Position numbers and translations under genes: made by a program. A stretch of DNA of 64,000 bases from Polytrichum commune. Taxonomy: Eukaryota > Streptophyta > Polytrichopsida > Polytrichales > Polytrichaceae. The stretch lies in the NCBI GenBank assembly GCA_950295325.1, contig OX485803.1:58729554-58793553 (forward strand). The letters run 5' to 3'. Below the pieces are notes generated by a model, which was not told the DNA's origin, searched no databases, and saw only the letters and a program-made list of their open reading frames with translations. Of this stretch, positions 4,001-62,450 are shown in pieces. Every line of letters starts with the position of its first letter. Within the stretch, counting starts at the first letter, position 1.

Positions 4001-5890
4001 GTGTTCCCGTTGCTTTGCTTGTTTGAGCTTTTAGTTCAAGTCAAAATGACAAAGTCAAAGACTTTGAGTAGTATTTTCATGTCAATTTCCAAAGAAGAGA
4101 TGCAACAGTCAGTGGTACGTGATTTTGAGACTCTAAAGACTAAGATGGATGAGGAAGCGGCTTTGCAAGTAGAAGTGGTGAAGCGTCCAGTTGGAAGGCC
4201 ACGAGGCACATTGGAGGCAACGTTGTTGACTCCTAAAGTGAAAGAAGAGGAGCCAACTTCCAAAAAGCTCAAGGTTAGGGGTCATTACACTAATTGGTTT
4301 GAGCCTTTTCTTTGGGATCCCATTTATGTTGTTGTTAGAAAACATAGAAACATCAACAATGCATGGAAGTACTTGAAGATGATGTACAAGAAACCGGGAG
4401 AGAGCTATGGCACTTATGAGAAGCTTGCTAGAAGTATGTATGAGTGGTTCACATCTACAGGAGAACTCAAAGATGCTTACAAGAAGTATGTAGATGAAGG
4501 ATCTTCCCATTTCCATGGAGGAAACCAACATTGTCCTATTCTATCAAATCATCAAGAATTAAAGGAAGCTATCATTGAGATGCTACATGCACATAGGAAG
4601 GCGGGACAACTTCTCTATGCAAGATCAATCCGCAATCTCATCATCCCCTTTATTCAAAAGAGGGCTCCAGATCTATTTGTTCAAGAAAGCTCAACTTCAT
4701 TCAAGGTATCACTTAGTTGGGTGAAGGCATTTGCTAGAAAAGAGTTAAATTGGTCTTTTAGAAAAGCTACTACAGCAGCAAGCAAATTACCAAAAGATTG
4801 GGAGCTACAAAGTTTAAAGATGACCCAACGGATAGCCTACTTGGTTAAGTGCTACAATGTCCTATGTGAGTTAGTGGTAAACACAGATCAGACCGCAGTC
4901 CATCTTGTTCCAACAAGTGGAATAAAAACTTGGGAAGAGAAAGGATCTAAACATGTGGCTGTGATTGGAATTGAAGACAAAAGACAAGTTACAGTAGCGG
5001 TTTCATCTTCATTACCGGGTAACATCTTACCTTTTCAAGTCATTTTCACAGGAACAACAAGTAGGAGTTTACCTCTTATGAACCTAGGTCGGAAAACGTG
5101 TGAAAAAACTGGGTGGCACATCACACACACTAGCAACCATTGGTCTAATCTTGACTCTTGCAAGGCATTTGTTGAAGGGATACTTCAACCCTACAGACTC
5201 AAACAAATAGAGATTTTTTGACTCCCCATCCATACTCCTCTTATTTGGTTGATTGGCTGCTGGTCCGTTCATACCTCTATAACGTTTCTTACATGGTTGA
5301 AATTGACTCATCCCTTAGTGAAAACAATATTTGCACACGTGTTTTTATAGCCAGCAGATGTTATCATCTAACGACCTTTCAAGCATGCCTTTCGAATCCA
5401 ATACGATAAATGAAGCATAAATCAAATATCTCAACAATTAGATTCAGGGGAGGAATAAAACATCAAGCTCGATTCTAAGCTAAGTGTTTTAAAACCTCTC
5501 CTATGTTCATGGTTGTATGAGGTTTGGTTTAGCATTCACAAAAAATGAATGGTACAAATTGGATGGGAACAATGTAGCATTGCTAAAGCTTTTCAACATG
5601 ATTTTCAAGACGATGCCTTGTGCACAAATTTATTAATACCATTTTTCAAGGAGGAAGCAACCCAAATAGAAGAAGTTACAAACAAGGACGACACAATAGA
5701 AGACATGGAGCCGGATACTTGCATTACAACAATCATGCAAGAGTCGTTAGAAAGGGCAGCTGAGATCAGCCGTTTATATGGAGCTCGAATTTCATCTCTA
5801 AAGGACGCAGCTAGAAAAATGTATGTTCAATCTGCACAAAAAAAAAAATCTTTTGGAAGGTTCCGATGTACAAACATCTGCAGGATTTAA
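4001..5890 (+). pseudogene. DDE_1 (pogo/CENP-B-like) transposase, decayed
   Basis: The first 406 codons (4001-5221) are open. They contain an AT-hook-like KRPVGRPRGT near residue 62, a CENP-B/Tc5-type helix-turn-helix region (around residues 200-275) ending in WSFRKATTAASKLP, then the start of the DDE catalytic core with VVNTDQTAV (first Asp) and a typical GNILPFQVIFTG segment. The frame stops at 5219-5221. The second catalytic Asp region lies in another frame near 5250-5400 and contains stops. A C-terminal piece with acidic linker reads on at 5549-5890 and begins GWEQCSIAKAFQ. The enzyme would cut and rejoin its own ends, but with the core broken it cannot be active. The family assignment rests on motif recognition; a related DDE superfamily is possible. 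Confidence 0.75.
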
Positions 5891-41693: not shown

Positions 41694-42740
41694 CTAAGAG
41701 AAGTTGATATTATAGACTGGCGTTTTGTCGGGGTAGTACAGGCCAAAGTGTTTCTCATCTGGCGTGCCTCCTTTCCCATTTTCATTGAAAAGGGCAAAGA
41801 TGTATGTTCGGATATACCCTGGTCGTGCGGGCGTGCCCGTTTTACTGAGCACATGTTTCACCAGGTTGTTGTTATAAGTCTGTGCATTTGCTATGTTAGC
41901 AGGGGCGTTGTTATCAGATGGGCCAGATGGCCACCCAGACTCACTAATAAGGATCGGCACATTGTCATATGCTCCGAGCCGGGCCATGGCAGCAACTACC
42001 GTGTCGACCATGGCATCAAACAAGTTGGTGTACGTTTTGCCATTATCAGTGACATAATGGGATGCATCCGCGTTGAAAAGCGCATAACCTAAATTGATGC
42101 TCTGTGCACTTCTATAAGCAAGGTATGGGTAGATGTTCAACGTCATGGGGGAGCCCTTTTGGACGCAGAAATCAAGATATGACTTGAGGACGGCCGTCCA
42201 TTTATCCTCGAAAGCACCGACTGACGGTGGAAACGGATGAGCAGCTGAGATGATGCCGTAAAAGTGGGGTGAGCACACTTTGATGTTACTCGCGTAACCC
42301 GCGTCTTCTATGGCTTTCTGCACGTTCCAAATCGCGGGCATGAGCTTCGATATGTCATTCATGTTGCCTAAGTACTCGTTTCCGACTCCAATGTACGTGA
42401 TTTGGGTGGCCGGGTAGTACTGCTTCACGTTGTTGGTCACCCACGCGGCAGCTGCGGTCGGATCGTTTGCCAAGCTCGCGATTTTGTCGTTTGTGATTCC
42501 TACAAAAACATCGATCCCCGAATTCGCAAAGGCCGTCAATGCGTCGCTTGCGGGCGAGTATATCTTCACATGCTTTACTCCGAGGCCTTGTAGCAGAGAC
42601 ACCACTTCAGATGGAGATGGCAGGGGCTGTCCAACACGCCCATAGTTCACTCCAACTGCTGCTTCGGCCGGAGCTGTCATCGCTGCGATTATAGTTATAA
42701 CACATGTCACCAGAAAAACACACTTATATGCAACCATCAT
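41694..42740 (-). CDS. Glucan endo-1,3-beta-glucosidase, GH17, intronless
   Basis: A secreted 348-aa glycoside hydrolase family 17 enzyme that cleaves internal 1,3-beta-glucan (callose) bonds in the cell wall. Residues 1-27 form a signal peptide; the mature N-terminus begins with VGVNYGRVG typical of the family. The acid/base Glu122 lies in YIGVGNEYLG and the nucleophile Glu267 in ISESGWPSG. The chain ends soon after the FALFNENGKGG block, so there is no C-terminal X8/CBM43 domain and no GPI-signal tail. Length fits the simple secreted class. Many plant homologues carry an intron near the signal-peptide end; none is present here. The ATG at 42740 is followed by a second ATG; either would keep the signal peptide. 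Role in defence or development cannot be told. Confidence 0.93.
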   Translation of the reverse strand: MMVAYKCVFLVTCVITIIAAMTAPAEAAVGVNYGRVGQPLPSPSEVVSLLQGLGVKHVKIYSPASDALTAFANSGIDVFVGITNDKIASLANDPTAAAAWVTNNVKQYYPATQITYIGVGNEYLGNMNDISKLMPAIWNVQKAIEDAGYASNIKVCSPHFYGIISAAHPFPPSVGAFEDKWTAVLKSYLDFCVQKGSPMTLNIYPYLAYRSAQSINLGYALFNADASHYVTDNGKTYTNLFDAMVDTVVAAMARLGAYDNVPILISESGWPSGPSDNNAPANIANAQTYNNNLVKHVLSKTGTPARPGYIRTYIFALFNENGKGGTPDEKHFGLYYPDKTPVYNINFS

Positions 42741-44577
42741 AAATCAGGAGCTCTTCTATAGCAGATTAATCCTCCACCTCTCGTGCTTGTGTGTGGCTGC
42801 CGGCCTGCTAATTAGCTCTTGTCCCCTGCATCAGTTAGCCACCATTTTCTTGAGTAACACAATCAATTGAAGCACACATCTACTAATAAAACCCCAAAAG
42901 GCTAGATGGCAATGCTCTAGTATTCCCTTGCGAGTCTTTAGAACCCTGACCCTCAACATTTGGGATGCATCCCTGAAGCTGTCAAGAGACAACTGTGCAT
43001 TCTTAGCACCCTACTTTGATAATTGTAGCATACATATAGTGGTCACAACAGACGTGATGACTTCCCCACACGTTAATCAACAGGAAGTTATGCATATGGC
43101 ATTTCCTCTGTGCCCATCTACAGCAGGATTGATGAGATGTCCTCATGCATACCTCCAACAATATTCTCCGAATGATCTCTCAAGCTGAACATTTGCCTCA
43201 TTGGTCTCCTGATGACAATGGACGACTCTGCAAATTAGGAGTGATCACAAGTCATATATGTGTGAGCCCAGTAGTATTTATTATACTATCAAAGGTAGGT
43301 ATAGAACCAGCCATGACATAAAAGTCAAATCACCGACAGTTTGAAGTTTTCAAATACCAAATGTGAGATACCAGATCTCACCTATGACTGATTTATCCTG
43401 GGATTGAACTCACTGATGTCCACACATCTAATTTCCCAGGCATGTTGATAAATCTTTGTCATGTAGATTGGCCAGGAAGCTTTTGCACCAACACTTGATT
43501 CACAGGAGCTGGAATGGAATATACATGGAACATGGTTCAGTGGTTGCCGATTCAAGGTTACAGATTTTGTTTACAATTTTTGTGTCTGTACAAATCCAAC
43601 ACGAGGCTTCATGCAGACCGATATCTTAAAAAGGAAGGTGTTGAAATTCAGGTGCACTTCTGACATGGTTTCAGTTTTTACTCTGCTGCTACCAAGAATT
43701 CAAACGGTCAATACAGACATCTTAGACACAGTGTCTCATTTGCTATTATTGTCGGAACATGGCATGTTTACTATGTCCTTTTCTCTTCACTTAAACTCCA
43801 CATTGGAATAGCACGGCCTGCCAAAATGCCCACAAAATGGGTATTAAAACTGAAGAATTTAGTCACAGACAGCACTATCGAACTTAGACAATGCAATCAA
43901 AGGAAAATCTTGTACTTCATGCACCCTTTTATGAACCTTACACACCAATTTCATACCAACTGGTTCCAACTTCATTGCAAAATCCTCTATTCTCCAAGGA
44001 AGTAAACATAAACACAAATCGGGCGACAAGAAACTGGTCTCTTTGCCATTCGCAATTAGTCCAGTTTGTGAACTTAATTTTAAGATACAACATTCTGCAA
44101 TTTAAAGTGGTGCAAGCTATCCAGTTGTGCAGCATTGTAATTTTTGCAAGTGAGGAAAACTTATCAATTTTATACAGTGTCCAATCTTATAACATGCATT
44201 GTGAGTCATGCAATGGAATAGATTCCAATTCTCGATTTGACACATGATGTCACCATAGTCACCAGTGGCCATCACACTGCATCACTTGTCCAGCAACACC
44301 ATCCTTACATTCATATTAAATACACACAACAATGTTATACTTGAAATGAATATTCAAGTATGGTTGCAAACCCACATCACTGAGGCGATGTGGTCGTGGG
44401 CTAGGAAGATCTCAGCTGACAATTGCGATCTGACAAATCTAAAGGCTCCTATGTTGCCCCAATTTATGGCTTCTCTTCCCCTCGGGTAGAGTTTGAAAAA
44501 CTTCACGTTGGATGAAATCTCCACCTCCATCCACTCACAAATATTGGATGAAAATTTTCAAACTAAGTCCTTCATTA
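42741..44577. other. Upstream region of the GH17 gene, otherwise empty
   Basis: Should contain the glucanase promoter. No clear TATA box; TTTTATTAGTAG on the minus strand near 42887-42898 is a weak candidate. The frames at 43611-44489 are unrecognised. Confidence 0.35.
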
Positions 44578-50018: not shown

Positions 50019-53000
50019 CTATCTAAAGTTACTCGTCTTCTTCCAATTCCACTCAATGTGGAGGTTATGTCTTTTACATAGCACGTTCCTCGCCCCCCAA
50101 CTTTGGTCAAACCCTTGAAGCGTAGTCATAGCGGACACCGGGCAAATCTTGATTTGTTTGAGCACTTTGTTCCAAGCCGCCTTAGCATAGAGAATGAGTT
50201 CATCCCAAATGCGGTGTTTAACCCTCGTTAAATGCCATTGTTCGTCATTGAACACTTTGTCATTACGCTCCACCCAAATAGTCCAAAGGGTAATACCTCT
50301 AAGAAGATGCCAAATTTTGATTTTCTTGGCATACTTTTTAGGGATTCTTTCCCCAAAAATGACTTGTTTCCAATTGAAACAATCGTAATTGCCCGTACGA
50401 ATTCCGCAAAGTTCGTGCATGATGTATGTCGCCCAACGCCAAGCCCTCTTTGCTTGTATGCAATCCCAAAACTTGTGCTTGATGGACTCACTCGTGTTGG
50501 GGAGGCAAAATACACATTGTTTGGAGATGGAAGCCGGGGCAATTCGCGCTCTCCATTCGTTAACCGCCACCGCCTTGTGCCAAATAGACCAAATGAACGC
50601 CGCTTCTTTGCCGGCACGGAGGGGATCCCATACTTGGGACCAAAAGAATCTATAGTTACTCGGGAGGTAACCTTGCCATTTATCCCCCGCGCGTGTGGTC
50701 CCCGCGTTTCTACTAGTAATGATTTCTCTACCACTCTTGGTGGTGTAGTTGAGGAAGTGGCCGCCATCCCCCCATCGCCACCTATCCGGGTCCCAACTAA
50801 GGGTGGCAACCTTACCATAGAAAAAGGTTATCTCTTCCTTATCATCATCCTTGTCCTTTTTAGAGCCGCGAGTGGTGTGGATGATTTTGACTTCATGAAA
50901 AATTCCCTCAAGGTTACCAACCGGCCTTTCCCAAGGCCTAAGACACCTAGAATGTGTTCCCACCGTAAAGCAAGGAGCCGGGATTGGGAGACTTACATTG
51001 TAATGTTGAAGACAAGGGGACGTAAATTCCGTTGTGCACTGTACCACTAAGGTAGGATCTTCACTCCCTCCTTCATAAAGTCCAATCCAAGTACTGGCGA
51101 AAGTAGTGTCAAGGTCATCTTCAAGCATGGCTCGCCAAGGTTCGGCGACTCTGTCCTTCAATTCACCCCACCTAGTCTCATCGGCCGGTAAAAGGTTGAA
51201 CCTTGCTTGCGCGTCTCCCCATGTGACAAAGTCCTTGCTTCCACTATCCCAAATATCATCAACACTTTGGATCCCTTTTCGGTGCCATTCCAATCCTTCG
51301 AGGTAGGTAAACCCTTTCTTGAGTAAGTCAACTCCATCCGACCACCAAATGTTAGAATGAAGTAATTCCATTCTTGTCCGGGGGGATATTTGGTACATAC
51401 CTTTAACCATTCTTCTCCATGCTTTGCTAATGTGGCCCCAAACCTTGGATCCGGGGAATCCTTGGTGTTGCTTGCATGTAAACCAATCTAATCCTACTCC
51501 CCAACTTCGCCCTCGTTGGGGGTTAAATCTAGCTAGCCTATAGCGTAACATTAGTTGGAGATTAGATTCTCCGGGTTCCATAGCCTTGACTATCCACTTA
51601 CAAAGTAGACTAGTCTTAGCCTCCTCTGGATCAACAAGCCCAAGTCCCCCATATTTCTTTTTCATACAACATTCTTTCCAACTAACCCGGGTTCGGGTAA
51701 GTTGCTCTTTTCCGGACCAAAGGTAGTTTCGAATCGCTCCGCGTATCTTTCCAAGAATCTTGTTGGATCCCCCCCATACCGTAATGAAGAACCAAAGTGT
51801 AGAAAGTAACACTTAGTTGCAAATTACGATTCTTCCCACAAGAGAAAGTTTCCTACAACTCCAATAATCAAGCTTCTTGGAAATCTTGTTATATAGGAAT
51901 TGGTCAATGTCCAGTGTACTAAGCTTAAGGCCAAAAGGTGTGCCTAGAAGCTTGGAGAGATCCCCTTCTTCCGCCCATTGCCAATCATATCTTTGGAGCC
52001 ATACGGGCCTATGTGTAAATTTGTCAAACCAATAGGCACAAGATTTATCCCAATTGATTTCCATGCCGGACGCTTTACTAAACGTTGTGAGTAGTCTTAC
52101 AAGTTCATCCACATTCTTTTTCTCCCCTCTAACCATAAATGACGAATCGTCCGCGTATTGAGAAATACATTGTTGTTTTCTTCTTCCTGGAAGGTAAATT
52201 CTCCTCAACTTTCTTTCCACGACCGTTTTCTTTATGATGTGGGTAAGAAATTCTCCGACAATTAGAAAGAGATAGGGGGCAAGGGGATACCCTTGTCTCA
52301 CTCCCTTTTCAATTTTGAAGTTGTTGCCGGGGCTCCCGTTGAGGTTGACCGCCGCGGTCGCATTTTCAAAAAGTAACTTAACCCACCTTATAAGATTTTC
52401 GTTAATGTGCATGGCTTTCATGACATGGAAAAGAAATTGTCATGACACCTTGTCGTATGTTTTAGAGAAGTCTAGTTTCAAGAAGACCGAGTATTGTTTA
52501 GATTGTCTAGTCCAATGTAAGGTCTCTTGAGTAAAAACTATGTTATTTAGAATAAATCGGAGTGGCAAAAATGCCGTTTGCTCCGGACTTATGACATCCC
52601 TAAGCATAGGTTGGAGTCTAAGTTGGAGAGTCTTAGCAAAAATTTTGTAGCTAACCGTAAGGAAGGTGATAGGCCTCCAATAGTTTAGGTCTTTGTTATC
52701 CCCCTCCTTTGGTATTAGGCTAATCAATCCCTTGGTGATTCCATTATGTAGTTTCTATTCTTCTATGTTCTTGACTATCATTCGGTGGTAATCTTGACCT
52801 ATGGTTGGCCAAAGCTTTTGGAAAAATTCTATAGGAATGTCATCATGCCCCGGGGCCTTCCCTTTAGCCATTGCATTAGTAGCACTACGTAATTCTTTCT
52901 TCGTTATTTCTTGGTCCAAGGCCTCGTTCATTGCATCCGTAAATGGGGCCGGTAGTCCCTCCATAACTTCCATAAGGGCTTCATCTATAATTTCCTTATG

Positions 53001-54294
53001 ATTATAGAGATTCTTGTAAAAATCATGACAAATCATGACAAATCATTTCTAAATCCTCTCTTTTCGTAAAGCTTCTCCCTTGTCTATCTTTAAGCTCTAC
53101 TATAATCGATTGGATATTCTTTTGTCTTACTGCTTTAAATAATTCTTTGGAGCATTTGTCCCCTACTTGTTGTCATTTAGACCTCGCTCTAATGGAGGCC
53201 CCTTTGGCTTTCCTTGTCTCTATCCCCTCCATCATGTGTCTAAGTTTGCTCACCTCTCCTTGCTTTTCAAAATTATCAATATCCTCATACAATATGGCCG
53301 TGGCAATTTCTAGTCTAGCCATGGTATCTAGCTCTAGCTTCCTAGTGGCTTTGGCTTTTTCTTTGCACATTTGTCTATAGCATCTAGAGACTATCCTTAT
53401 TTTATAGAAGAAATGGATGTCCCTAAGAAATCCTACCCATCTTTCCTCTAGCTTTTGCAATATCTCATCCTTGAGGTAAGACACATTCCATTTAAATGTT
53501 GTCTTTCTCACTTCATTCCCCCCAATATGCACTTCTAAGTGTACCGGAGAATGATCCGATCCCACGGAATATCCGTGGATGTAGTATGATGCTAGGTGAA
53601 TATTTAATCTATTATGTGTAGGAGTATAGAATCTATCCAACCTAGCTAGCCTACGTCTTTCCCCTCTTTGTCCATTATCCCATGAGTACCGCGGCCCTCC
53701 TTGGTAGATAAATTGGTCATTGACTTGGAGAGTGTTAAGAAGAATGTTTCATGTACCTCTTTCCAAGTCGCTTATCATCCTCCCACAATTGTGAGACTTG
53801 TCTCCCAGCCGCTCCGTCATGTTGAAGTCTCCACCGATTATCCATTCGCAATCCTTTAGTAGTGCGTCCATAAGCATATACCATAAGTATCTCCTATCGG
53901 TGGGAATATTGGGTGCATAAATACATGCAAGCCCTATATTCCCCCCTTCAACACCTTCCATTTTGACCCACACCACTCTATTATCATATAGAGATCCATT
54001 GGCGGTAACTAACTTGGCAAATTTGTTGGTTATAAATATTCCTACCCCACCTTTGCCCGCCGCACTTGGGTTAAGCCAACTCCGCTCTCCGGGAGCGGCT
54101 TCTAGTATCCAACTAGTATATCCTGGCATAAGTCTTGGTCCTAGGTTTTTCAAGGCTCTCCCTCTAAGTTTGTGTTCTTGGATCATTACTACATCGGCTT
54201 TAGGTGCTAGTGTGTTAAGGAACCCTTTTTCTTTTATGATACTATCTGGGTCATTAAATCCCCTAATGTTGTGAGTGATTATGTTCCACTTCAT
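50019..54294 (-). pseudogene. LINE ORF2: endonuclease-reverse transcriptase, broken
   Basis: Removing one 10-bp duplication leaves 1422 codons. Order: an APE-type endonuclease (THNIRGFN, MIQEHKLRG, GGDFNMTE, and SDHSPV as the end motif) at about 54294-53500, a reverse transcriptase with LIPKEGD, FLKLDFSKTYDKVS, the KGVRQGYPLAP block and the catalytic YADD at about 52170-52160, then a C-terminal zf-RVT domain (CVFC...KHKFWDC) and WTIWVERNDKVF. Stops lie at 53749 (TGA), 53173 (TGA), 52755 (TAG), 52440 (TGA) and 51813 (TAA). The frame changes at the duplicated CATGACAAAT (about 53026-53048). The last 597 codons remain open. Confidence 0.92.
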
Positions 54295-54383
54295 GAGCTA
54301 GGGTTTTGTACAAAGTGATCCTTCTTTCTTCCTTTAACTAGGATTGGTGCCCGTGCCCCAAAATCTCCCTTGTCTTGGGGTGG

Positions 54384-56807
54384 TCATTTGTTACTCAAGG
54401 TCATAAGACTAGAAGCACTATTTCGGATAGGTGTGTTAGCATGTGATGCTCCTTGGTCATATTCTCTAGCCCCTTCTCCCCTCGTATCCGTAGAAGTATT
54501 TGGGCTATCTAGGCCAATACTCGCCATTATGTCTTTGTAGGTGTTACCCTTGTAGTTAGTTTTTTGGGGGGGTTGTGTCTCCCACACTATGTCCGGAGGT
54601 CTATTGGCAAGCATGTTCTCGGTCTCCGGGTAAGTGCTACCAATGCGTTCAAAGTCATTATGGAGGTAGGGTCCCGTCCACTTACCAAGTCGTTGGGTCT
54701 TGTTGGTATTCCGGTGACTAGGTGGTCCGTTTTCCCACGTTTGTTTTTCCCTTATGCTAGCCTTCGAGAACGGTGCTTTGTTTGTGGTTTCTTCACTCCA
54801 CCTCTCTGGTCTCTCCCCACTAGGTCTTTCACCAAGGTCCTTGCCATTTCTTGCCACCGTGTAACCATTTTGATTACTGTTACCGGCTTCCCCCATTGGT
54901 AATTCTCCTTCAAGGTTATTTTTGGTAGGGGGTTCGTGGACTAGCCATTGGCTCCCCGAGTTTCGAGGGGCCACCTGCCCCTGCCACGTGGTTGGCTCTC
55001 CCTCTGCTGTCCCGGCGTAGCCCCCTCCTCTGTCTCCTTCCTCCATCCCGTTCCTCTCCTTCCCGTTGCTGGTTGGTTTCTGTGCCCCGCCCAAGTCGTT
55101 GCCGAGCAGTCCCTCGTCTTCCTGGGCGCTCCGGAGCCTCTTCTCTCCCTCGTCTTCGCTGCATGTCTGCTGCCGCTGTTCGGTGTGGCCAGCTTGTTCC
55201 CGAGCTGAGGCGGCAGCTTGAGCCTGCCTGTCTGCTCCAGTTCCTCCCTCTGTTGCATATAGCTGATTTCTTGTGGGTCTCACTGTATCCTCGGCCTCCA
55301 TCATCTCGTCTTGGGGTGGCGATTCCTTCTCCGCAGCCTCTCCCTCTTCAACCTGCATCAGGTCGTTGTTGGTTGTTGTCGGCCCCTCCTCCGTTCTATC
55401 AATCTCATCTTCGGCATCCTCTGCTTCACTATCCGATTCTTCCTCCTCCGACTCCTCAATTTCTCCGCTTTCGAGGGGCTTTTTGTGACCTGAATGTTTT
55501 ATTGGCGACCAGAGCATCGTAGATGCTGGATCACCCCTGCCTTCACACTGTGCCTCAGAACCTTCTCCCCTGTCTGTCTGTACAAACACACCGCCCGTCT
55601 GCCGCAGAGCCTCAAGCCCACTCGCACTGTCCGGCCTCTATGCTTCGATCTGTCGTTCGGTTCTTCTTTCCTGACTTTTGTTTCCTCCAAGCCCTTCCTG
55701 GTTTTCTAGTGTTGGGTTTGTCCAGGTAGCTTGATCTCCTCGCAGTTGGCCGGCCTCTTCACTCTGTGTATTCGTTCGGTACCTTGTTGCTCTTGACTCT
55801 TCCGCTAACGCGAAGGCATTTGACCTCATCTCGTCATTAATGGTATTGAAGATGTTTCTTCTTGTGTTTTTTCGGTTGATGACTTGTTGGAAGCCGTCTT
55901 CATCTATTCTTATGTTTTTCCCTTTCTCTTGCTGATGCATCTGTGGTACATGTGCTAATCTCCTCCCTCCCCTCACGGGTCTTTTCTGGACTACATTGCA
56001 TTCCCTCACCCGATGCTTCCAGCTATGACATGCTTTGCATCTCATTGGCAACTTATCATAATCAACTAGGACTTTTTGTGTTGGGTGCGATCCATCCTCC
56101 GTTTCTAGATCTATGCTTGTCACCCATCCTTTGTTGACCATGAGATTCACACAGAACCTCGGATCTCTTGCCGATTCGTTTGATGTATCAATGCCAATCA
56201 CTTCCCCTAACGTTTCTGCTATGGCTAGTGCTTGATCATGGTGTTCAAATGGAAGTCTCCTCAAGGCAACCCAAGTGGGAAAAACTAGATTGCTAGGGTT
56301 GTCCGGGTTGAATCCGTGTACCCAACTTTGGATCATGCATGTTCCCCATTTGGACTTATAAGATGACAACATTAGTGCTCTGTTGAGTGCATCCGAGTCC
56401 TCTCCTTTAAGGAAAAAATAACCCTTCCCCACATTCATGCAAAATGTTAACACACTATCTCCTATTTTTTGATTGAGGGCTTGCAACCACCGATCCATGT
56501 CTTGGAAGGTGGGTTTTGGGCCTACAAACTTTGCAATCACTAGTTGCTCCTTTAATAAGGCAATGCGTGCATTCACTTTCATTGGATCCACTTTAAAGGT
56601 AATGGCATCCTTCCTAACCAAGAAACCACTAAAGTTCCTCTCAAGATTTGTTGGGAGGATCTCACCAACTTGTTCCCTAAATGGGTTGAGTTGTCCTTCA
56701 TGAACATGACTACTTGCTTGGGCAAGAACTTCAATCACAGCCTCCACCATTTCTTCATCACGTCTTGGATCTTCCCCCGTTATCCATCCTCCTTTTTCTT
56801 CAAGCAT
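54384..56807 (-). pseudogene. LINE ORF1: nucleic-acid-binding protein, one internal stop
   Basis: A single frame of 807 residue positions interrupted once by TAG at 55638-55640. The N-terminal part (389 codons) resembles the DUF4283-type plant LINE ORF1, with FPTWVALRRLPFEHHD, and ends in a CCHC knuckle CKACHSWKHRVREC. The C-terminal part is acidic and Glu-rich near its start (EEEESDSEAEDAEDE), then low-complexity. ORF1 binds the element's RNA. The ATG at 56807 is preceded in frame by a TGA four codons upstream. Confidence 0.88.
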
Positions 56808-57170
56808 TGGGTCAAATCACAGGCCTCCGCCATATCTGACTTTCTCCGCGAACGTTTCCACCTGTCGGACTTCTCCCATGGCTACAGAGTTGGTGATTAC
56901 TGTTGCACCCCTTCCGTTGTGGTTCGTAGATCTACTGGATCCAATGCTGATCGCACTTCCCGATCTGATATCCACTTCAGATTGCTCCGATCCGACGTTC
57001 GTTTGTCACCTATCTAATCACGATCTCGTCTAAGCTCTTACACATCAAAGCAAATAATCCTATCCTAGCCTCAAGGCACAGATCTCGAGGGTACCAGTGC
57101 CTCGCTTCCGTTTCCTAGAGCGGCCCATTGGGTGACCAATCAATATATTACCAATCTCTAGCACCGACCG
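56808..57170 (-). other. LINE 5' UTR
   Basis: A 363-bp leader of the LINE, ending at the target duplication. It would contain the internal promoter of a live element; no motif was recognised. Confidence 0.7.
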
Positions 57171-59111: not shown

Positions 59112-62100
59112 TCAAGTGCTTCTGCAACAAGTGCCCGAGTCATCGGAGAAGTAACCAGAACTGCAGTCACATGTGTATCCCACTGCCGAAGTCACATTTG
59201 AGTGACAGCTAGCTTTCCAATCACCCTGTGTCTTGCAAGTATCTGACATTCCACATCCGACATCTGTACATCTCGTCAATGAGCAGATGAAAGGGAGTCG
59301 CACATCACATCTCAAGTCGTTCAGCATGTAATCCAGCTTGCTATTGTCTCTCTCCTGTTCTATAGAATCATACTTTACTGTTATACAGCCCTCATACCCG
59401 CCCCTGTTATTCGGTTCACCATAATTCCAGAAAGACTGGTTGAAAGGAATGCAAGGAGAAGCTGGCCATGTCCAAAAAGAAGTCGGTGGGTTGACCATGT
59501 ATGGCTTGCGACCACCCAAGTAGCAACCGAGACCCTTCGGGTTGGTTTCATCCGGAAACACATAGTCTTTGGCCTTCTCACAGATGTGGCCAAGATCATT
59601 AAGCTCGTCCCAAGTAGCCGCAGCTGCCAAATGTCCATCCTCCTGTTGCCTGCAATAATATTCAGCCTCAGCCCATGTCTGGCGCTCCTTAACGAGCATG
59701 AAACATGTTCCTGATTCCTTCCCTGCCTTGTAACCTTCGGGACACTCGGGCTGGGCCTCAGGAGAAGGAGTGTGTGGTGGTGGGTGGTGATGATGATGGG
59801 GCGGGGGACTGGGAGGTGGGGGAGATAGGCTGGGAGGAGGTGGAGAAGGGCTGGGAGGAGGAGGTGACGGGCTTGGAGGAGGAGGTGACGGGCTTGGAGG
59901 AGGAGGTGAGGGGCTTGGAGGTGGAGGTGAGGGGCTAGGAGGTGGGGGAGATGGACTAGGGGGAGGAGGTGAAGAATTGGGAGGTGGAGGTGAAGGACTG
60001 GGAGGTGGAGGTGAAGGAGAAGAAGGTGGGGGAGATGGAGATGGAGGTGGAGGAGATGAACTGGGAGTTGAAGGAGTTGGAGTTGTTGTATGATAGAAGG
60101 CAGCACATGTTGCTCCTGACTTCTGGTTTGAATTGCCTGACAAACAATTTCCACTAACATCGAAGACAATTCCTCGCGCTGCAAGATTATTACAAGTAGG
60201 AGCCACTGCATTGATGAAATTGTTGTTCAGGTGCACCTCCTGCAAGTGTGGAAGCCTACAGAATCCTGCTTGCACCTTACCTGAAATCCTGTTGTTTCCC
60301 AAGTTTAGCACCTCCAGGCTTTGCAGATTCTTGAATGACGTGGGGATAGATCCGGTAAGTTTGTTGATCTTCAAATCGAATATGTTCAGTTGATCCAACA
60401 TGCCAATTGCTGATGGCAAGCTCCCTTGGTGCTTGTTGTTTAGACCCAGGAATTGGTTCAAAGTCCTCGACATGTTGCCGATGGAATGGGGGATGTCGCC
60501 ATCGATCTCATTGTTGGCATACACCAACACAGAGCAAGGAGACTTTCCAAGACTTGTGGGGAGACTCTTGTGAAACTTGTTGTTGTTCACGAAAATGGCG
60601 TCGAGCGGCCTCTCAAACAGTTCGGGAGGAAGTTCGCCGTGAAAGTTGTTGAATCGAATGTCCAGGTATATCAGGTTCTTGATGTCCAGGCAAACCTCGG
60701 GAAACAGCCCCGAGAATCTGTTGTTGCTCAGATCCAGCTCAAATAATGTATCCATGTACCTGAATGTCTCGGGGATTTCTCCGCTGAAAAAGTTGGAGTT
60801 CAAATGGAACAGCCCGATCTCCGCAAGCAAACCCAACTCAGGCACAAGAACTCCTGTAAGATTGCTGTGATTCAAATCAATACCCGCAACCACTCTGAGA
60901 TCCGAATCTGGATCATCGATAGGGGCGGAGCAAAAAACTCCCGTATAATCACAAACCTTGGGGCCCACCCATGTCTTGGTGATGCCCAAAGGATCATCGG
61001 TGATAGCTTTCTTCCACGCTTGGAGGGCAATGAAAGCTCTGTACTGACTGAACTGGATGGGATGGTGTCCTACTCCAATGGGATGGTGGCCAACTCCAGG
61101 GGGATGATGGCCCCCGCCAAGCGAGAAGGCGGAATGATGGGCTCCATCTTCGGCAGCCTCAGGTGCTTCTGCTGCAGGCAAGAAATGCATCAGATAAAGT
61201 TCAGGTAAACCATCACAATCAAGCGTCACGGTTGCCAGGATTATTCACATCCAATACATGAGGATTAAACACCAGTACCAGTATAACGCTCATTTCAAAA
61301 TATCATAAAATTAAGCATCCGAATTCTATATCAGACACTAAGGAATTTGGGCTAAATGATTGAAGATAACACAAGACGAGGACATGGTTCAGCCATCCAA
61401 ACTGAACACAGATTTAAGAAGTTTAATACTGTAGTAGAAAGTTCCCCAGAAAGTTCACGACATTAAGAACACCATCGAATCTATACAAGTCACAGAAAGT
61501 AAACAAGGAAAATGTGGTAACCATGCCTCCCATGAGTATGGTGCGGTAAACGAGCACCACAATGGAGGGTAGAATATCCAACCTCTTTGACATCAGTAGC
61601 CTCATATCCAAACCAAAAAATTAGCAGACCTCCAATTCCGTTTGCCATTTAACTTACATATGGACATAAAACATTACCTGGCCAAGAACAACTTATCAAC
61701 AGATATTTCGGCTATCGTTACTGTTCGCAGTGGTGTACTCATTTTCCCAAAGAAGCTTATGCAGAGGTCCCCAAAAAGCCATTCTAATGAAAGAAAGCTT
61801 TCAAAATCTCCAGTTGACAAAGACTAACTGATAGTCTCGGAGATGAAATCACTCCACAACCCAAGCTTATCGCTTAGGTTCAAATAGCGAATAGCTCTGA
61901 CAGCCGCACTTGGGCTTCCAGTAACAGAGATAAGTATACATCTCCTTATTAGATGTATAACGTAATCTGCATTACATGGCCCCCATCCATGTGTCGTTCA
62001 CATCCGGTAGGACTGGAATGGTCCGAGCAACTAAGTGTCTGCCATGGACACCCGAAAGCACCAAATCTAGACCCACATTGACGGAAACCTAAGCCACACT

Positions 62101-62450
62101 GACGTTCTGTGCGGGTCCACAAAGAGCGCATGACTTTCCGGAAATATGGCAAACTTGAAAATGGGCCTCAATAGTCGTACACATCATCAGCCAGTGCTTC
62201 TCCGAAGAGATAAGCAGAGATTAGCTCGCACAACTTCCGAGCGATGAACTACCATGAAGTATGCTAGTTGCGCATTGCCTTACAAGCTTTCTACTTTCAT
62301 CACTAAGAGGGCTCCCGTGCCTACGTCCTGCTTGCATTCAAAAGTTGGCATAAACCTCCATGAAAGGGCATTACCTGAGTCAGTACTGGAGGCAAATGAC
62401 AGAGAAGAGCAGAGGACGAGCAGCAATACGAACTTGGCGAAGGAGCGCAT
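59112..62450 (-). CDS. LRR-extensin fused to C-type lectin and EGF-like domains
   Basis: Two exons, 62450-62375 and 61171-59112, joined by a GT-AG intron, give 711 aa. Exon 1 encodes a signal peptide (RSFAKFVLLLVLCSSLSFAS). Then come a His-rich segment (GGGHHPPGVGHHPIGVGHH), an LRR-extensin-type N-cap and about ten LRRs (about residues 65-380), a run of a dozen or so SPPPP extensin motifs (about 383-495), a C-type lectin domain (502-655) with conserved Cys, WTWP, GEPNN and LNDLRCD...PFIC, and a Cys-rich EGF-like tail (about 660-708). There is no kinase or TM segment, so it is probably a wall-bound protein. LRX proteins bind RALF peptides and pectin through the LRR; EPN is a mannose-type Ca/sugar motif in C-type lectins. 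The ligand is inferred only. The upstream GTG at 61229-61230 is not the start; it lies in the intron. Confidence 0.88.

Follow-up and report, generated by a model that had tools for sequence, protein, structure and literature searches.

A leucine-rich repeat extensin-type gene with a predicted C-type lectin domain in the moss Polytrichum commune

Organization of the gene

The window, that is, the whole stretch of 64,000 nucleotides of Polytrichum commune DNA analysed here (assembly GCA_950295325.1, contig OX485803.1, forward-strand positions 58,729,554 to 58,793,553), carries on its minus strand a frame that is open for 710 codons (59112-61244). The following features make up the gene:

62375-62450, minus strand: exon 1, with a signal-peptide-like start (MRSFAKFVLLLVLCSSLSFASSTDS) judged by eye; the same exon is present in the second copy, with one residue changed
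61172-62374, minus strand: intron, phase 1, GT..AG, 1203 bases
59112-61171, minus strand: exon 2, with the remaining coding sequence and the stop codon; protein of 711 amino acids, or 710 with the next AG
61056-61171, minus strand: segment joining the signal-like exon to the LRR head; contains GHHP-type His/Gly repeats, read directly
60090-61055, minus strand: LRX-type LRR head with an N-terminal cap and a C-terminal Cys stretch (Pfam, PDB-sequence and LRX2 matches)
59760-60089, minus strand: extensin-like repeat of 110 amino acids that ends in a His run (composition count)
59283-59744, minus strand: C-type lectin domain (Pfam Lectin_C above cut-off)
59316-59417, minus strand: Ca/sugar-site span with E115, N117, E123, N147 and D148 and the motifs GEPNN..E and NDxRC, identical in both copies
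59115-59282, minus strand: C-terminal tail rich in Cys; EGF-like by eye, with a score under the Pfam cut-off

The original prediction of an LRR-extensin-lectin fusion is borne out: all parts lie in one gene, and the LRR and lectin domains are identified by Pfam and PDB-sequence matches. It had placed all parts in one open frame, which is correct for the LRR head, the repeat, the lectin domain and the tail, all in exon 2, but not for the signal-like start, which is a separate exon. Exon 1 splices to exon 2 at 61171 across GT..AG borders with the frame kept, so that both the length and the junction (62375/61171) of the proposed 711-residue protein are correct. An alternative AG three bases on (61168) also keeps the frame and gives 710 residues. 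An in-frame ATG (MAQLGAGLSAWFQLQ...) is also present upstream. The start encoded by exon 1 is hydrophobic and, by eye, signal-like.

His-rich stretches flank the part of the protein formed by the LRR head and the repeat, one before the LRR (61056-61118, minus strand; GHHP repeats) and one before the lectin domain (59760-59798, minus strand; HHHHH). The latter run is longer in the second copy. These stretches are perhaps metal-binding.

An LRX-type LRR head

Within the open reading frame, Pfam detects LRR_8 (58.3 bits) and LRRNT_2 (23.1 bits; cut-off 20.7). Among the sequences of solved structures, the top match of the LRR head is Arabidopsis LRX2 (315.8 bits), with 146 of 314 columns identical (47%), followed by pollen LRX1 (two entries, 304.2 and 303.2 bits) and then by the kinase GSO1 (295.1 bits, summed over four stretches). 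This agrees with the LRX-type LRR domain first read from the letters. The likeness to LRX proteins such as LRX2 extends over about 310 residues of the head and continues into SP3-5 repeats; unlike them, the moss protein goes on past the repeat into a C-type lectin domain and then a Cys-rich tail, and the repeat is without Tyr.

We searched the moss's own genome (407.8 Mb in 64 contigs; nuclear matches were listed on C1-C7, and a set of seven chromosomes would suit Polytrichaceae) for further genes of this type. With Arabidopsis LRX2 as query, two loci scored 315.0 bits each and the next 115.3 bits (38 matches; 127 of 1812 candidates scored). The LRR head from the window returned the same pattern, with two loci at 734.7 and 732.9 bits, then a drop to 106.3 bits, among the matches listed from a search that gave 191 (124 of 1305 candidates scored). 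Among the candidates scored, the two lectin-fused loci are the only LRX-grade matches found. A conventional LRX gene was not found in the 407.8-Mb genome, in which gaps, stretches kept out of the search or unscored candidates could conceal one. For Physcomitrium patens, five LRX are reported in the available text of PMC4769139.

An extensin-like repeat devoid of Tyr

The 110-residue segment behind the LRR head contains 67 Pro, 29 Ser and 13 SP3-5 motifs (14 in the second copy), as expected from the extensin repeat of the original prediction. It is not C-terminal: about 215 further residues follow in the 711-residue protein. The LRX definition given in the accessible part of PMC4769139 places the extensin part near the C terminus, a trait that this protein lacks. 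Neither copy has a single Tyr in the repeat, and the Tyr-X-Tyr cross-link motif, described in that same part as mostly typical of classical extensins, is absent; Lys is also missing from the window copy. Because the repeat has no Tyr, the covalent extensin anchor proposed at the outset is not supported.

A C-type lectin domain with a complete-looking Ca site

The Pfam family Lectin_C scores 27.5 bits on the whole open reading frame and 31.1 bits on its C-terminal 215 residues, and for the lectin part of the second copy the score is 32.5 bits (cut-off 22.6), which supports a C-type lectin domain in both copies. Searched against PDB sequences, the C-terminal 215 residues gave 94 matches at E up to 1, 60 of which were listed; we take all 60 names to be C-type-lectin-like. 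The three best lectins align to residues 6-61 only of this 215-residue part, and E-selectin aligns over residues 25-187 with 27.5 bits in all and 21.1 bits for the aligned stretch (stretch E 0.0017).

In the E-selectin alignment, GEPNNR...E and ND.RC are in register, and E115, N117, E123, N147 and D148 (numbered here, as elsewhere, as positions in the C-terminal 215 residues comprising the lectin part and tail) pair with residues that we take to be E80, N82, E88, N105 and D106 of E-selectin, with roles in Ca and sugar binding. All five are identical in the second copy. Judged by alignment, the Ca site thus looks complete, a point on which the original prediction had asked for a structural view. 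An AlphaFold model built from two sequences, a low alignment depth, reached a mean pLDDT of 34.1, too low to lend the fold structural support. The EPN triplet is a motif of the mannose/fucose/GlcNAc type. Departures from E-selectin are also present: the Trp of WND is replaced by Leu, and the lectin core contains insertions.

The tail is Cys-rich, and the E-selectin alignment extends into the first EGF cysteines of that protein. Its Pfam EGF score is 9.9 bits (E 1.2), below the cut-off of 21.5, although short Cys-rich domains can score under Pfam cut-offs. Of the EGF-like end that had been proposed, the Cys-rich character stands, but a firm EGF domain does not; the tail may be called EGF-like by eye only. 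The order of domains resembles that of E-selectin and other animal proteins in which a C-type lectin domain (CTLD) precedes EGF, with the GEPNNR...E and NDxRC motifs in register and then a Cys-rich segment. It differs from them in the plant LRR and Pro-rich parts, in a similarity of 21-27 bits and in an EGF match below cut-off.

Pfam matches no kinase family in the open reading frame, which stops at 59112 with neither a membrane span nor a kinase after the CTLD. The fusion protein shares with C-type lectin receptor kinases a plant extracellular C-type lectin domain but, unlike them, is without a kinase. In Arabidopsis, the C-type lectin is represented by a single receptor-kinase gene (PMC7313013, available text).

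Other C-type lectin domains in the genome

With the lectin part as protein query, three places were found in the 407.8-Mb genome, including the window gene and its second copy. The third (C2:38077493-38077657; 33%, E 0.195) lies in a locus, C2:38075993-38079157, in which successive frames show, by eye, CTLD pieces spread over exons, then a membrane span and the beginning of a kinase. This locus is probably a member of the plant C-type lectin receptor kinases. Of its CTLD pieces, the first reaches 16.4 bits with Lectin_C, less than the cut-off, and the second has no match; inspection by eye showed neither an EPN nor an ND motif in this CTLD. Used as a query, the C2 piece returned the same three places, with cross-matches at E 0.02 and 0.19. 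A genome search with Pfam PF00059 gave no match and missed even the gene in the window, and it is uninformative on the number of CTLDs. With three CTLD places and two LRX-grade loci, both of which are the fusion copies, the suspected rarity of the combination holds within this genome.

Acquisition of the lectin from bacteria or viruses found no support among close relatives: patterns that reach these only gave no match in viral contigs and six in prokaryote genomes, none of them confirmed as a relative. A more distant relative, or a source in animals or fungi, is still conceivable.

A second copy with mosaic divergence

The second copy (C1:58879852-58883226) lies on the opposite strand, head to head with the window gene across a gap of about 88 kb; its lectin match is at C1:58882579-58883220, and about 94 kb separates the lectin parts of the two copies. 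The second copy is open for 721 codons and encodes 715 residues, with the same domains in the same layout, the same splice donor and a matching acceptor. A DNA search of the genome found the intron at two places only, the two gene copies, with 85% identity including gaps (BLAST).

Divergence between the copies is uneven along the gene. Base differences amount to 108 of 1166 in the intron (9.3%), 14 of 1072 in the N-terminal and LRR coding part (1.3%), 64 of 328 in the repeat (19.5%; 23.6% on a codon alignment), 60 of 471 in the lectin (12.7%) and 16 of 177 in the tail (9.0%); the 3' flank follows with 47 of 238 (19.7%) and then 30 of 426 (7.0%). The LRR head has a single changed residue in 322 (dN 0.0013, dS 0.058), and the lectin part is about 87-88% identical, with 23 of 154 residues changed in its core (dN 0.082, dS 0.43). 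At third positions, 13 of 357 differ in the LRR part versus 47 of 215 in lectin and tail (Fisher p 1.5e-11). Pairwise dN/dS is below 1 for the LRR and for the lectin core, both of which are under purifying selection between the copies. The unequal synonymous divergence suggests either that gene conversion has homogenised the two LRR parts or that the lectin part was exchanged.

The 23 lectin changes, which fall in residues 1-160 of the C-terminal 215, cluster in two stretches, 90-95 (5 of 6 residues) and 130-143 (8 of 14). A permutation test on the densest 14-residue window gave p 0.0066, both stretches having been chosen after the data were seen. Residues 130-143 align with the E-selectin loop just before the ND of the Ca site, a loop that touches the ligand in that protein.

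Candidate peptide partners

RALF genes were detected in the moss genome at five places, each above cut-off (10 candidates scored). At one of these, the only one of the five whose frame was read (L008), an RR site and RALF-like cysteines are present. Malectin_like, the family to which the FERONIA ectodomain belongs, is matched above cut-off at least 56 times in the genome, counted exon-wise and not sorted into receptor kinases. LRX proteins bind RALF, according to the available text of PMC9933782; their RALF role rests on flowering-plant work.

Proposed function and alternatives

We read the gene as a new variant of LRX, with a putative RALF-binding head, a Hyp-rich rod and a predicted Ca-dependent sugar-binding head. 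The protein would be secreted, and its LRR head would bind RALF peptides by analogy with other LRX. The Tyr-free, Hyp-rich rod would serve as a spacer, and the lectin head would hold a Ca-bound sugar in the wall or at the cell surface. Because of the EPN motif, this sugar would be expected to be of the mannose/fucose/GlcNAc class. The lectin head itself might then act as the wall anchor, and peptide and sugar binding would be coupled, a substitute for the covalent attachment that classic LRX are assumed to have. Between the copies, the peptide partner would be common and the sugar fit different. That the fusion couples peptide binding to Ca-dependent sugar binding in place of covalent anchoring is, in our judgement from sequence, slightly more probable than not, and the 'wall sensor' role named in the original prediction is what we would infer from the same domains. 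A broader proposition, in which the whole detected LRX complement of this moss lineage was rebuilt as two-headed sensors of RALF and glycans, with near-identical LRR heads, diverging lectin heads and a lectin in place of the Tyr cross-linking anchor, is tentative and seems to us doubtful.

The divergence of the lectin parts invites a different assignment, in which the lectin head recognises sugars that are foreign or stem from damage, as part of a wall-held immune receptor, and the copies diversified their lectins around a constant LRR partner. The 87% identity of the lectin parts against one changed residue in 322 in the LRR, and the clusters at 90-95 and 130-143, the latter just before the aligned ND, are what such a receptor might display. 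However, the lectin-core dN/dS is about 0.19, and there is therefore no positive selection overall; the two variable stretches were picked after the data were seen; and synonymous divergence is high in the lectin too, so that the difference from the LRR is in large part due to the copies having been homogenised unevenly. We consider an immune role unlikely. Still less probable is a lectin fold without sugar binding that has a structural role or binds protein, a situation found in many C-type-lectin-like domains. Leu in place of the Trp of WND, the insertions relative to E-selectin and the weak scores overall point that way, but both copies, at 87% identity, keep all five aligned ligand residues, and the genome's receptor-kinase-like CTLD, which is without visible EPN or ND, is unlike the fusion lectin in this respect.

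An artefact, whether an assembly join of an LRX gene and a lectin gene at the Pro-rich repeat or two separate transcripts, would be in keeping with the position of the join in a low-complexity repeat. A second locus on the opposite strand bears the same fused frame, however, which makes an assembly join very unlikely, and divergence between the copies of 19.5% in the repeat and 12.7% in the lectin coding sequence shows that the assembly did not enter a single locus twice. We give an artefact of either kind only a minute chance.

Relation to published work and significance

In the available text of PMC7313013 and PMC9213367, no fusion of LRX with a C-type lectin is described, most subscription literature and all plant sequence databases being outside the search; the word 'lectin' has no occurrence in the text on LRX of PMC4769139. 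The fusion may already be present, unremarked, in annotated moss genomes. A moss C-type lectin gene, Pa1_19801.1 of Physcomitrellopsis africana, is listed as a candidate for horizontal transfer and aligned to a 'C-type lectin mannose-binding isoform-like' protein (PMC11228847, available text). Compared by description only, it differs from the fusion in that this text mentions neither LRR nor extensin; it is perhaps a relative.

LRX proteins bind RALF and are attached to the wall, and the fusion bears on how they sense its condition. A natural LRX ending in a predicted Ca-dependent lectin rather than a cross-linkable extensin allows one to ask whether sugar binding can substitute for cross-linking, and whether it gates the response to the peptide. 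If the proposed coupling is true, a single molecule would read a growth peptide together with wall or microbial sugars, and plants would have a Ca-binding C-type lectin in soluble form.

Genomic surroundings

Beyond the 3' end of the gene, the window contains a LINE-like element (50019-56816, minus strand) in several separate frames, with DUF4283, endonuclease (PF03372) and reverse transcriptase (PF00078) domains and a zf-RVT match just under cut-off. Farther along are an open frame of glycosyl hydrolase family 17 (41694-42743, minus strand; beta-1,3-glucanase-like, 275.7 bits) and a 406-residue open frame (4001-5221, plus strand) that has no Pfam family above cut-off and by eye resembles a DNA-transposon protein. 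Elsewhere in the assembly, the plastid contig C8 carries psaA and psaB and is 146,561 bases long; moss plastids are generally smaller than this. The top matches of its PsaB, which point to a moss, are 8htu, 6l35 and 7ksq (1704.7 to 1700.6 bits), which we take to be Physcomitrium patens entries, followed by matches at 1667.2 bits and then at 1630.3 bits and lower.
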